Source: Candidatus Dormiibacterota bacterium (GTDB lineage: Bacteria; Chloroflexota; Dormibacteria; Aeolococcales; Aeolococcaceae). Taken from it: a stretch of DNA of 64,000 bases. The notes below the pieces were generated by a model that saw only the letters and a program-made list of their open reading frames with translations, ran no database searches and had not been told where the DNA came from. This document shows, piece after piece, positions 4,482-11,949 of this stretch. Both the position numbers and the translations under genes were made by a program. Position 1 is the stretch's first letter. Each line of letters opens with the position of its first letter. The stretch lies in NCBI GenBank assembly GCA_036495095.1, contig DASXNK010000106.1, positions 1-64,000 of the forward strand, written 5' to 3'.

Positions 4482-5909
4482 CTAGCGCCACACCCGCTTC
4501 ATGATCACGCGGGCGAGCTTCTCCGGGTCGTGGTGCGTCGAGATCCGCGGCGAGACGACGTCGGCGAGGATGAAGTGGACCGGACGCCGTGACGCCTTCT
4601 CACGATCGAACGCGACCCGGGTGATGCCCGCCTCGACCGCCGAGGGGGGCAGGGGAAGGCCGTGGTTGCTGTTGCAGATCACGTAGTCGAAGAGATTGCC
4701 GCCGACGTGCTTCTCGATGGCGTCGAGGTGCTCGCTCACGGTGAAACCGGTGGTCTCCCCCGGCTGGGTGGCGACGTTGCACACGTACACCTTGACCGCC
4801 GGGGAGGCCCGCAGCGCCTCCACCAGCCCGTCCACCAGCAGGTTGGGGAGGATCGAGGTGTAGAGCGAGCCGGGGCCGACCACGATCAGCTCGGCGTCGA
4901 GGATGGCGAGCTCGGCCTCGGGGTTGATCTGGGGCGACGGCGGGTCGAGGAAGACCCGGTCGATCGGCCCGGCGCCCTGGGGGATGCGCGACTCGCCGAT
5001 GCGGATCTCGCCGCCCGCGTTGGCACACAGGACCACGTCCTGGAGGGTGCTCGGCATGATCTGGCCACGCACGCGCAGAACCCGTCCCGAGGCCTGGAGG
5101 GCGTGCTCGAAGTCGCCGGTGATCTCGGCCATCGCCATGATGAAGAGGTTGCCGAAGGAGTGGCCGCTCAGCGACCCCTCGCCGGTGAAGCGGTGGGAGA
5201 AGAGGCTGGTCATCAGCGGCTCGGTCTCCGCCAGGGCGGTGAGGCACTGGCGGAAGTCGCCCGGGGGCAGCACCTGGTACTCGGTGCGGAGCCGGCCGCT
5301 GGAGCCGCCGTCGTCGGCGACGGTGACGATCGCGGAGATGTTCCCGGTGTACTTCTTGATGCCGCGGAGCATCGAGCTCATCCCGGTGCCCCCGCCGATG
5401 GCCACCAGCCGCGGCCCCTTGGCGAGCAGGCGGTGGGTGTAGATCTGCTCGACCACGCCGCTGCCGCCCGACGACGCCAGCGGGAGGAAGGGGCCGAGGA
5501 TCGACCGGCCCAGCCGGTAGAACGCGAAGCCGGCCACGCTGACGCCGAGCCCGAGGAAGAGCACCGCCCGTGCCCAGCGGGGCATGAACTGCAGGGTGAG
5601 CGGGCCGACGAAGCGGGGGAAGGCGAAGGTGGTGTAGGCGTCCTTGAGCGCGTAGCCGAAGGCCAGGCTGAGCAGCACGATGGCGGCGAAGAGCAGCAGC
5701 AGCCAGCGCTTGACGTTCAGCCCGGGGGTGAACCACCGCACCATCCCCTCGGGCCGGAGAGGAGGGGAGTCGGGCATCGGGGGTCGATTGTCCCACGACG
5801 CCGCCTCGGGCTCCGCGGCCGAGGGGGCGGGCTCGCCGGCCGGGGCGGCCCCGCTGACGGGCGGCTCCTCCGGGCGCTCCGGGGCGGGCACGGCGAGGCG
5901 CGCGCGCAT
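4482..5909 (-). CDS. yvcK: YvcK/CofD-family protein with N-terminal membrane anchor
   Basis: 475-residue member of the YvcK (gluconeogenesis factor) branch of the CofD fold. YvcK proteins bind UDP-sugars and are needed for cell-wall integrity and growth on gluconeogenic carbon in Bacillus and Mycobacterium (CuvA). The core begins near residue 167 with the GGGTG loop (172-176), followed by TVADDGGSSGRLR. Unlike the roughly 317-residue soluble B. subtilis protein, this one has a Pro/Ala-rich 55-residue N terminus and two membrane segments (about 69-86 and 113-132). The start at 5909 lies 2 bases after the glpX stop, so the two genes form one operon. Membrane tethering is seen in sequence; its role is inferred. 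Confidence 0.92.
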   Translation of the reverse strand: MRARLAVPAPERPEEPPVSGAAPAGEPAPSAAEPEAASWDNRPPMPDSPPLRPEGMVRWFTPGLNVKRWLLLLFAAIVLLSLAFGYALKDAYTTFAFPRFVGPLTLQFMPRWARAVLFLGLGVSVAGFAFYRLGRSILGPFLPLASSGGSGVVEQIYTHRLLAKGPRLVAIGGGTGMSSMLRGIKKYTGNISAIVTVADDGGSSGRLRTEYQVLPPGDFRQCLTALAETEPLMTSLFSHRFTGEGSLSGHSFGNLFIMAMAEITGDFEHALQASGRVLRVRGQIMPSTLQDVVLCANAGGEIRIGESRIPQGAGPIDRVFLDPPSPQINPEAELAILDAELIVVGPGSLYTSILPNLLVDGLVEALRASPAVKVYVCNVATQPGETTGFTVSEHLDAIEKHVGGNLFDYVICNSNHGLPLPPSAVEAGITRVAFDREKASRRPVHFILADVVSPRISTHHDPEKLARVIMKRVWR

Positions 5910-5911
5910 GC

Positions 5912-6940
5912 TCAGAGGCCGGCCCCGGCGGGGGCGATGGGCGCGCGGGCCCGGAGGCGGGCGATGTCGTGGGTGGCCTCGATGTACCGCACCGTGCCCG
6001 AATACGAGCGCATCACCACGCTGTGGGTGCTGACCACGCCTCGACCGGCGAAGCGCACCCCCTGGAGGAGCTCGCCGTCGGTCACCCCGGTCGCCGCGAA
6101 GAACACGTTCTCGCCTCCGCACAGATCGTCGAGAGTCAGAACGCCGGTGTCCTTGCCCTCGGCACGCATCACCGCGCGCTCGCCCTCGTCACGCGGCGCC
6201 AGCCGGCCCTGCATGCCTCCGCCCACCGCCTTGACCGCGCAGGCGGCGAGCACCCCCTCGGGGGCGCCGCCGATGCCCCAGAGGACGTCGATGCCGGTGC
6301 GGTGCTCCATCGCCGCCCACAGCCCGGCGGCGATGTCGCCGTCGGGGATCAGCTTCACCCGCGCCCCGGCGGCGCGGATCTCGCGCAGCAGGCGCTGGTG
6401 GCGGGGGCGGTTGAGGACCACCACGGTCAGGTCCTCGACGTCGCGGCCCTCGGCCCGGGCGATCCGCTTCAGGTTGTTGGCCACGGTGTCGGTGATGTCG
6501 ATGACCTTGTGCGCGCGGGGCCCGACGATCAGCTTCTCCATGTAGTAGCAGTGGGTGTGGAAGAGCGCGCCGCGCTCCGCCAGCGCCACCGTGGAGACCG
6601 CTCCGGGGAGGCCCCCGGCCACCAGCCGGGCACTGTCGATGGGGTCGACGGCGACGTCCACGGTGGGCGGGTTGCCGTTGCCCACGTTCTCCCCGATGTA
6701 GAGCATCGGGTTGTCGTCCTTCTCGCCCTCGCCGATCACCACCACCCCGTCCATGTCGACGTAGCCGAGGCTGCGTCGCATCGCGTCCACGGCGGCCTGC
6801 TCGGCCTCGTCGAGGAGGTCGCGGCCCATGAACCGCGAGGCGGCGATCGCCGCCCCCTCGGTGACCCGCACCAGCTCGAGCGCGAGGTTGCGGTCGATCG
6901 GGGTGCCGATGTCGCGGCGCTGGCGGGCTCTCGGCGGCAT
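5912..6940 (-). CDS. glpX: fructose-1,6-bisphosphatase class II (GlpX)
   Basis: 342-residue cytoplasmic phosphatase that converts fructose 1,6-bisphosphate to fructose 6-phosphate in gluconeogenesis. Family signatures visible are GEGEKDDNPML, the VDPIDSARLV metal/phosphate motif, PDGDIA and the GIGGAPEG loop. The length matches the family (about 320-340). ATG at 6940 gives MPPRARQRRDIG, and a TATCAT -10 box lies nine bases upstream; upstream codons would extend past that promoter. It is followed 2 bases later by yvcK, so carbon flux and envelope control are transcriptionally linked. Confidence 0.94.
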   Translation of the reverse strand: MPPRARQRRDIGTPIDRNLALELVRVTEGAAIAASRFMGRDLLDEAEQAAVDAMRRSLGYVDMDGVVVIGEGEKDDNPMLYIGENVGNGNPPTVDVAVDPIDSARLVAGGLPGAVSTVALAERGALFHTHCYYMEKLIVGPRAHKVIDITDTVANNLKRIARAEGRDVEDLTVVVLNRPRHQRLLREIRAAGARVKLIPDGDIAAGLWAAMEHRTGIDVLWGIGGAPEGVLAACAVKAVGGGMQGRLAPRDEGERAVMRAEGKDTGVLTLDDLCGGENVFFAATGVTDGELLQGVRFAGRGVVSTHSVVMRSYSGTVRYIEATHDIARLRARAPIAPAGAGL

Positions 6941-6949
6941 GGCAGCGGG

Positions 6950-6955
6950 ATGATA
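6950..6955 (-). promoter_or_regulatory. -10 box, leaderless promoter of glpX-yvcK
   Basis: TATCAT on the minus strand, nine bases before the glpX ATG at 6940. Confidence 0.45.
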
Positions 6956-7034
6956 CGCGGAATCGGTGGCATCCCCGTCACGCCTCGGCTGCCCCCGGGC
7001 ACTCCCCGCCGGGGAGCGCAGAATCACTCCGACG

Positions 7035-9286: not shown

Positions 9287-10534
9287 TTGATCTTTCTCAG
9301 CGACTTCCTGCGCGCCGACGTGGTCGACGTCCATCAGAGGACCGTCGGCAAGGTCCGTGACCTGATCGTGCGCATGGGCGATCCGTACCCCACGGTCATC
9401 GCCCTCGCGGTGCGCGGTCACTCGGCCCCGGCGACCATCGACTGGAGCGTGGTCCGCGCCTGGGAGAACCGCGAGATCAGCCTCGGCGTCGGCGCCGCCG
9501 ACCTCAGGGAGCACGAGCCCGTGCCCGAGGAGGTCTGGCTGAGCCGCGACATCCTCGACAAGCAGATCGTCGACACCGACGGCCGCCGGGTGGTGCGGGT
9601 CAACGACCTCCAGCTCCAGCAGAGCAACGGCTCGGTGCTGCTGGTGGGGGTGGACATCGGCACCCGCGGACTGCTCCGCCGGCTCAACGCCGAGCACGTG
9701 GGCCGGCGGCTGCGCCGACTCGCCGGCGGCGACCTCCCCCAGCGGCTGATCAGCTGGGACGCGGTCGACACGCTGCACAGCGACGAGCGCTCGGTGAAGC
9801 TGCGCATCAGCCACCGCAAGCTCTCGAAGATGCATCCCGCCGACATCGCCGAGATCGTCGGCCAGCTCGGCGGCCGCGACCGGGAGGCGATCTTCGCCAG
9901 CCTCGACGACGAGATCGCCGCCGACACCCTCGAGGAGTCGTCCGACGAGGTGCAGGCGCAGATCCTCGCCCGGCTCGACGACGAGCGCGCCGCCGACATC
10001 CTCGAGGCGATGTCGCCGGACGAGGCCGCCGACCTGCTCGCCGACCTCCCCGAGGAACGCCGCGAGCAGCTGATCGCCAAGATGGAGGCCGAGGAGGCCG
10101 AGGACGTCGAGGAGCTGCTCGCCTACGGTGAGGACACCGCCGGCGGCCTGATGACCACCGAGTACGTGGCCATCCCCGCCAGCCTCACCGCGGCCGAGGC
10201 GATCGACCGCCTCCGCGAGCTCGAACCCGACGCCGAGTCGATCTACTACGTGTACGTGATCGACGACGACGAGCGGCTGCTCGGGGTGCTGAGCCTCCGC
10301 GACCTCATCGTCGCCAAGCCGGCGACCCCGATCGCCGACCTGATGATCAAGCGGGTCATCGCCGTGCCCCTCGACGCCCGGCCTGAGGACGTGGCCGCGG
10401 TGATCGCCAAGTACAACCTCCTCGCCGTCCCGGTTGTGGACGACGACGACCGTATCCAGGGGATCGTCACCATCGACGACGCCCTCGACACGGTCATGCC
10501 CGCCGGGCTGAAGCGGAGGGCCAGGGCGCTGTGA
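9287..10534 (+). CDS. soluble PRC-barrel/MgtE-N/CBS protein, putative Mg2+ sensor subunit
   Basis: 415-residue cytoplasmic protein with the regulatory half of an MgtE magnesium channel but no membrane domain. Residues 1-80 look like a PRC-barrel, followed by a second beta-rich repeat (about 85-165). Residues 178-275 are the MgtE N superhelical domain (KMHPADIAEIV, repeated E-x-A-A-D-I/L-L-E-x-M). Two CBS domains follow (about 285-405). In MgtE the N and CBS domains bind Mg2+ and gate the pore. The TTG start at 9287 is the best available; the upstream ATG at 9273 is in another frame and ends after five codons. The NRAMP-like gene follows 71 bases downstream, which suggests that this protein regulates that transporter. 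Confidence 0.85.
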   Translation: MIFLSDFLRADVVDVHQRTVGKVRDLIVRMGDPYPTVIALAVRGHSAPATIDWSVVRAWENREISLGVGAADLREHEPVPEEVWLSRDILDKQIVDTDGRRVVRVNDLQLQQSNGSVLLVGVDIGTRGLLRRLNAEHVGRRLRRLAGGDLPQRLISWDAVDTLHSDERSVKLRISHRKLSKMHPADIAEIVGQLGGRDREAIFASLDDEIAADTLEESSDEVQAQILARLDDERAADILEAMSPDEAADLLADLPEERREQLIAKMEAEEAEDVEELLAYGEDTAGGLMTTEYVAIPASLTAAEAIDRLRELEPDAESIYYVYVIDDDERLLGVLSLRDLIVAKPATPIADLMIKRVIAVPLDARPEDVAAVIAKYNLLAVPVVDDDDRIQGIVTIDDALDTVMPAGLKRRARAL

Positions 10535-10605
10535 CCACCCCGCGGATTCCGCACCCGGCCACGGCGAATTCGCGGGGGCCCCGGTGGTGAGCCGGCGGCG
10601 GTGCG

Positions 10606-11949
10606 ATGAAGACGCCCCCTCAGACCGCCGCCCTGCGCCGCAAGGCCGAGGAGGCGATCGCGGCGCGCCGTGAGCGCCGGTCCGCCCATCCCCGCCGCTT
10701 CGCCGGGGCGCGCAAGTACCTGGCGATCATCGGCCCCGGCCTGATCGTCGCCAATGCCGGCAACGACGCCGGCGGCATCTTCACCTACAGCAACACCGGG
10801 TCCAAGTACGGCCTCAACCTGCTCTGGACCTTCCTGCCCATCCTGCTCGCGCTGATCGTCACCCAGGAGATGGTGGCCCGGCTCGGCTGCGTGACCGGCA
10901 AGGGGCTGATGGACCTGATCCGCGAACGCTTCGGGGTGCGCTGGACGCTCTTCGCCTCGGTGGTGGTGATCGTCGCCAACGGCGGCACCGTGCTCGCCGA
11001 GTTCGCCGGCATCGGGGGCGCGCTGGGCCTGCTCGGCGTGCCCCTGCCCGTCGCCGTGCTGAGCGCGGCGCTGATGATCGGGGTGCTGGTGCTGCGCGCC
11101 AACCGCCGGCTGGTGGAACGGGTGTTCCTGGCGATGGGGCTGACCTTCGTCAGCTACATCGTCACCGCATTCATGGTGCCCCACAGCTGGGCCGAGGTCG
11201 CCCACGCACTGGTGGTCCCCACCCTCTCCCATCCGCCGATCCGCCCCGGCGCCACCTCCTACACCACCGACGTCATCACCCTGATCGGCACCACCATCAC
11301 GCCCTACATGCAGCTCTTCCTGCAGTCGTCGATCGTCGACAAGGGCACCTCGGAGAAGGAGCTGGGCTACGCCCGCGCCGACGTGATCAGCGGGTCGGCG
11401 TTCGCGGTGATGGTGGCGATCTTCATCGTCATCACCACCGCCTACACGCTCAACAGGGCGGGTTTCGCCGGGCAGGACCTGAGCAGCGCCACCGACGCCG
11501 CCCGCGCGCTCCAGCCCCTGGCCGGCGCCCACGCCACCCAGCTCTTCGCCATCGGCCTGCTCGGCGCCTCGCTGCTGGCGGCGGCGGTGCTGCCGCTGAG
11601 CACCGCCTTCGTCGTCTGCGAGGCCTTCGGGGCCGAGCGCAGCGTCCAGAGCCGCTTCGGCGAGGCGCCGCTCTTCTTCGGCCTCTTCATCCTGCTGCTC
11701 GCGACCGGTGCGATCACCGTGGCGCTGCTCGGACCCTCGTCGATCGCCGCGGTGGCGATCGGCACCCAGACCCTCGACGGCGTGCTGCTGCCGGTGCTGC
11801 TGGTGTTCATCCTCATCCTCGCCAACGACCGGCGGCTGCTCGGCCGCTACCGCAACGGGCCGGTCAACAACGCGATCGCCGGGGCGCTCACGGTGGTGCT
11901 CTCGGCGCTGACCGCCTACCTGGTGCTGACCACGCTCACCGGGCTGTAG
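10606..11949 (+). CDS. NRAMP-family divalent metal transporter of non-canonical type (candidate Mg2+ transporter)
   Basis: 447-residue membrane protein with about 11 membrane segments after a basic 38-residue N terminus. It aligns with NRAMP/MntH, but the metal-site motifs differ. The TM1 motif DPGN is DAGG here (Asp54 kept, Asn replaced by Gly57). The TM6 motif MPH reads TPY, so the Met that selects for transition metals is missing. The Asn-to-Gly and Met loss resemble the NRAMP-related magnesium transporters (NRMT) described in other bacteria. The upstream MgtE-N/CBS protein fits magnesium. The ATG at 10606 follows the GTGCG of a weak ribosome site. Its end overlaps the convergent kinase gene by 14 bases. 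Substrate is inferred, the fold is not. Confidence 0.88.
   Translation: MKTPPQTAALRRKAEEAIAARRERRSAHPRRFAGARKYLAIIGPGLIVANAGNDAGGIFTYSNTGSKYGLNLLWTFLPILLALIVTQEMVARLGCVTGKGLMDLIRERFGVRWTLFASVVVIVANGGTVLAEFAGIGGALGLLGVPLPVAVLSAALMIGVLVLRANRRLVERVFLAMGLTFVSYIVTAFMVPHSWAEVAHALVVPTLSHPPIRPGATSYTTDVITLIGTTITPYMQLFLQSSIVDKGTSEKELGYARADVISGSAFAVMVAIFIVITTAYTLNRAGFAGQDLSSATDAARALQPLAGAHATQLFAIGLLGASLLAAAVLPLSTAFVVCEAFGAERSVQSRFGEAPLFFGLFILLLATGAITVALLGPSSIAAVAIGTQTLDGVLLPVLLVFILILANDRRLLGRYRNGPVNNAIAGALTVVLSALTAYLVLTTLTGL

Follow-up and report, generated by a model that had tools for sequence, protein, structure and literature searches.

The window, a 64,000-nucleotide stretch of DNA from a Dormibacterota-related genome, contains two open reading frames on the plus strand, at 9287–10534 and 10606–11949, with a spacing of 71 bp. 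The first starts with TTG and encodes a soluble 415-residue protein in which a PRC region is followed by an MgtE_N domain and two CBS domains, with no channel domain; its start codon is uncertain, as the frame stays open for ~10 codons further upstream. The second starts with ATG and encodes a 447-residue NRMT-type transporter of the NRAMP family. Neither an M-box riboswitch nor any other Rfam match was found in the window. On the minus strand of the same window, reading frames for a CofD/YvcK-like protein (4482–6122) and a glpX-type fructose-bisphosphatase (5912–7027) overlap by ~200 nt as called, and the true start of the CofD/YvcK-like frame is probably later than its first possible start.

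Pfam matches in the first protein, which we call the sensor, were to MgtE_N (1.2e-28), to CBS in two copies (3.5e-21) and to PRC (2.8e-8), and the scan found no MgtE membrane domain (PF01769), in keeping with the original prediction of an upstream protein with the N and CBS domains of MgtE but no channel. In an AF2 model of the sensor (pLDDT 89.8), the MgtE part superposed on the Mg2+-bound cytosolic domain of MgtE (2yvy) with an rmsd of 1.6 Å over 230 columns. The PRC-barrel domain (PF05239) spans residues 2–60 (9290–9466, plus strand). A second PRC-like, strand-rich region at residues 82–123 (9530–9655, plus strand) was evident as a second PRC stretch in the Pfam scan and as strands in the AF2 model; its borders are our judgement, and it ranks among the most conserved stretches of the sensor family (consensus DLLDKQIVDTDGRKVVRVNDLQL). 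Among the 52 sensors encoded next to an NRMT gene in the survey described below, 49 have the PRC region, and the remaining three are split or cut reading frames.

In MgtE, Mg2+ ions at the N/CBS interface are bound by Asp91 and Asp247 (Mg4), Asp95 (Mg6), and Glu59 (Mg7) (PMC5882242). The counterparts in the window sensor are all acidic, with Asp245 (Mg4), Asp249 (Mg6), and Asp213 (Mg7) in the MgtE_N domain (residues 182–283; 9830–10135, plus strand) and Asp398 (Mg4) in the CBS pair (approximately residues 288–402; 10148–10492, plus strand). The Mg5 site is half retained, as Asp401 is kept and the position of Asp226 is occupied by Asn377. The Mg2 and Mg3 sites of MgtE involve Glu258 and Asp259 (PMC5882242), which sit past CBS2 in the plug helix; the window sensor has only ~12 residues beyond CBS2 and no plug helix. 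Contacts of MgtE with ATP include those of Phe227, by stacking, and Asn203 (PMC5529423). In the window sensor these positions are Leu378 and Ile354, and in the sensor family leucine is the commonest residue at the Phe227 position and the Asn203 position is variable. MgtE-like modulation of the sensor by ATP therefore seems doubtful. Taken together, the first protein has what defines the MgtE cytosolic sensor, the N and CBS2 fold with acidic interface Mg2+ sites, and lacks what defines the channel, PF01769 and the plug helix. As the module is intact and its conservation extends across phyla, we rejected the idea that the protein is a broken fragment of MgtE.

The second protein matched the Pfam Nramp family (8e-80). 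Mn/Fe carriers of this family have a DxxN–A/CxxM metal site, whereas NRMTs have a DxxG–TxxA/T signature (PMC8806188). The window transporter has Asp54-Ala-Gly-Gly57 (10765–10776, plus strand) in the helix-1 part of this site and Thr229-Thr-Ile-Thr232-Pro-Tyr234 (11290–11307, plus strand) in the helix-6 part, confirming the replacement of DPGN by DAGG and of MPH by TPY that had been read from the DNA. Its DxxG...TxxT pattern, where canonical family members have DxxN...AxxM, satisfies the NRMT signature and leaves the canonical MntH site unsatisfied. Both helix-6 replacements, methionine by threonine and alanine by threonine, count toward the NRMT signature, as does loss of the helix-6b histidines, which have been linked to proton coupling (PMC8806188) and whose positions are taken by Tyr234 and Leu239 in the window transporter. 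The helix-3 glutamate is kept as Glu132. The pore letters otherwise match a clostridial group with an M-box in seven of eight members, the one exception being a change of Glu to Asp at position 132.

Structural and phylogenetic comparisons gave the same assignment. In a search of all solved chains, EleNRMT was the best match to the window transporter at 312 bits and the runner-up, a canonical NRAMP, scored 78 bits; EleNRMT was also the first-ranked Foldseek match to the AF2 model (pLDDT 89), with a TM score of 0.91 normalised to the target. Two trees, of 113 and 38 sequences, from which the C. acetobutylicum proteins themselves were absent, placed the window transporter together with EleNRMT and all sampled M-box NRMTs and left canonical NRAMPs outside (support of 99–100 in one tree; 100 for the canonical split and 92 for the clade in the other). 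Close relatives of the window transporter are Dormibacterota records. Score, motif, and tree led us to reject a degenerate Mn/Fe NRAMP, and sequence, predicted fold, pore signature, and phylogeny support an NRMT, as had been predicted. By analogy with characterized NRMTs, the window transporter would be expected to carry Mg2+ without proton coupling.

The two genes are conserved together far beyond this genome. With this, and with the transporter placed apart from Mn/Fe carriers, neither result named beforehand as refuting the original prediction was obtained. At 80 NRMT loci from GTDB genomes, a sample chosen for likeness to the window's family and not a census, a same-strand PRC-MgtE_N-CBS gene lay no more than 400 nt away in 52 cases (51 upstream and 1 downstream), which span at least 12 named phyla and include one archaeon. 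The sensor gene was more distant at 7 of the 80 loci, and no sensor was detectable in the available flank, which in a few cases was short, at another 21. We also surveyed 121 genomes of the window's phylum, taking a Pfam model score of 360 bits or more as the mark of a canonical NRAMP. Same-strand MgtE_N genes within 2.5 kb accompanied 43 of 113 non-canonical NRAMPs among the matches listed and 0 of 37 canonical ones (Fisher p 5e-7, a value that ignores the relatedness of the genomes). Viewed from the sensor side, 63 of the 105 MgtE_N matches in the phylum were not beside an NRAMP; MgtE channels as well as stand-alone sensors are among these 63. An M-box riboswitch lies upstream of the transporter at 12 of the 80 loci, and these M-boxes tie the NRMT clade to Mg2+ independently. 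Mirror trees of the two genes correlated with r of 0.66 over 67 pairs, which we do not count as evidence for contact because shared ancestry yields the same result. An NRMT–MgtE_N fusion, as would prove contact, was found in none of the loci examined.

The sensor module also occurs in other settings. In a related genome of the same phylum (L149, 460–2493, minus strand), a single protein has the scanned layout PRC-MgtE_N-CBS-CBS-MgtE membrane domain, with one copy of PF01769; three other proteins (L150, L151, and L152) share its N-terminal layout and are of similar length, making fusion to an MgtE membrane domain probable for them as well. The phylum also has PRC-MgtE_N-CBS genes with no NRAMP gene beside them. 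At one such locus, L156, the sensor gene is followed after ~20 bp by a gene for a Yip1-domain membrane protein (the two genes occupy 275–1063 and 1084–2397, both on the minus strand), and this protein may be a third partner of the module. Elsewhere (G149, contig C78, 11259–12392), two MgtE_N matches fall in one open frame of 1042 codons, possibly a double sensor.

A family-by-family search of the window's own genome found no PF01769 channel, and the window sensor is the sole MgtE_N protein encoded there. The genome has one CorA, and Mg2+ uptake therefore does not depend on the NRMT alone. Two further NRAMPs (L001 and L003) have sites of the DxxN...AxxM type. A second NRMT-like protein (L004, contig C196) has no MgtE_N partner in its flanks. 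L004 belongs with L019, L020, and L021 to a separate long NRMT-like branch, with a DxxG–TxxA site and a C-terminal extension of ~100 residues; L019 and L020 do have an MgtE_N neighbor.

We favor, with a probability of roughly 0.6, a reading of the locus as an NrmT/NRMT-type unit of two genes for Mg2+ uptake, in which the sensor exerts Mg2+ feedback inhibition in trans. The transporter would admit hydrated Mg2+, and probably Mn2+ too, down its electrochemical gradient without coupling to protons. The soluble PRC-MgtE_N-CBS protein would dimerize via its CBS domains and, like the MgtE cytosolic domain, would close when cytoplasmic Mg2+ fills the acidic sites at the N/CBS interface, and the closed sensor would then inhibit the transporter, providing feedback control. 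We infer that sensor and transporter touch, that the PRC region is where they dock, and that the sign of regulation is negative; regulation in trans and docking through the PRC region, both part of the original prediction, are plausible but unproven.

Several observations count in favor of this feedback unit. First, the transporter resembles EleNRMT and belongs to the clade with M-boxes. Second, the sensor gene is its neighbor, and the Mg4, Mg6, and Mg7 residues of the sensor are kept. Third, the genome has no MgtE channel, and in L149 the same module is fused to an MgtE membrane domain. By contrast, the plug helix, which is the signal transmitter of MgtE, is absent from the sensor; no NRMT–MgtE_N fusion was found; and the sensor-less loci (21 of 80), the lack of an M-box in the window, the MgtE_N matches located elsewhere (63 of 105), and the CorA of the genome also count against it. 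So does the one pair studied experimentally. In the work of Shin et al. (2014; PMC4072509), co-expression of the MgtE-N fragment did not improve Mg2+ rescue by its A. capsulatum transporter, which preferred Mn2+. Rescue in that study was scored when Mg2+ was limiting, a condition under which an inhibitor that works at high Mg2+ would be expected to have no visible effect.

The same experiments bear on a competing explanation that we regard as unlikely, namely that the transporter carries chiefly Mn2+, or divalent metals broadly, and that its MgtE-like partner responds to Mn2+ or to the overall pool of divalent ions. A. capsulatum Acp2977, whose gene also adjoins one for MgtE-N, gave full rescue of a Mn2+ uptake mutant and only partial rescue of a Mg2+ mutant (Shin et al., 2014; PMC4072509), and the Acidobacterium relatives L054 and L080 lie inside the window's NRMT clade. 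L054, one Acidobacterium proxy, has a TxxA-PW site, however, whereas the pore signature of the window transporter is that of the M-box-rich clostridial group. The window's own lack of an M-box fits a Mn2+ carrier, but the DxxN/AxxM site for Mn2+ is lost and the genome has L001 and L003 available for this metal.

We judge it slightly less probable still that the sensor is a separate Mg2+-responsive factor that does not act on the transporter, for instance one that targets a different membrane protein or buffers metal, with the operon reflecting a shared need only. PRC-MgtE_N-CBS genes without an NRAMP neighbor, including the one beside the Yip1-domain gene in L156, and the ineffective fragment in A. 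capsulatum speak for this explanation. It accounts less well for adjacency to NRMT genes over at least 12 phyla, set against none for the 37 canonical NRAMPs sampled from the phylum of the window, or for the joining of the same module to an MgtE membrane domain in L149.

A broader idea, which we hold tentatively and at somewhat less than even odds, is that one Mg2+-sensing module may serve two unrelated transporter folds, being fused to an MgtE membrane domain in some genomes and docked in trans on an NRMT in others, perhaps via the PRC region, and in the latter case would gate without the plug helix or ATP contacts. Such a case would exemplify a single regulatory module common to two folds. 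The pairing of the two genes is old as well as widespread, occurring in at least 12 phyla, one archaeon included. Establishing what the MgtE-like partner does for NRMTs would explain how a LeuT-fold facilitator that has no energy source escapes Mg2+ overload.

The window itself contributes no new kind of system, and the idea that the pairing had not been described proved wrong. Shin et al. (2014; PMC4072509) found that a gene for the N-terminal cytoplasmic domain of MgtE adjoins most nrmT genes, observed that the C. acetobutylicum transporters gave Mg2+ rescue in the absence of this fragment, and suggested feedback or chaperone roles for the fragment, so that cytoplasmic feedback is their own hypothesis; the window locus is an added member, from a Dormibacterota-related genome, of this known two-gene arrangement. 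A search largely outside subscription journals found nothing beyond Shin et al. on the MgtE-N fragment or on a link between PRC, MgtE_N, and NRAMP. The NrmT operons of that study (C. acetobutylicum Ca_c0685 and A. capsulatum Acp2976–2977) resemble the window in pairing an NRAMP relative of altered pore with an MgtE-N gene, but the window has no M-box, and its sensor has an N-terminal PRC region of which the passages of PMC4072509 that we consulted make no mention. EleNRMT from Eggerthella lenta (PDB 7QIA; PMC8806188) shares with the window transporter 43–45% identity, the fold, the DxxG motif, the TM3 glutamate, and the lost helix-6b histidines, and differs in having TxxA-PW where the window has TxxT-PY. 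MgtE of T. thermophilus (2YVX/2ZY9) is ~42% identical to the sensor over the Foldseek-aligned part of the N and CBS domains, with most interface Mg2+ residues kept in the sensor; in contrast to MgtE, the sensor has no channel domain or plug helix, has replacements of the ATP-site phenylalanine and asparagine, and has the PRC region in addition. What our analysis adds to the 2014 work is the conserved PRC region, the retention of most interface Mg2+ sites, the loss of the plug helix and of key ATP contacts, and the form of the module that is fused to an MgtE membrane domain.
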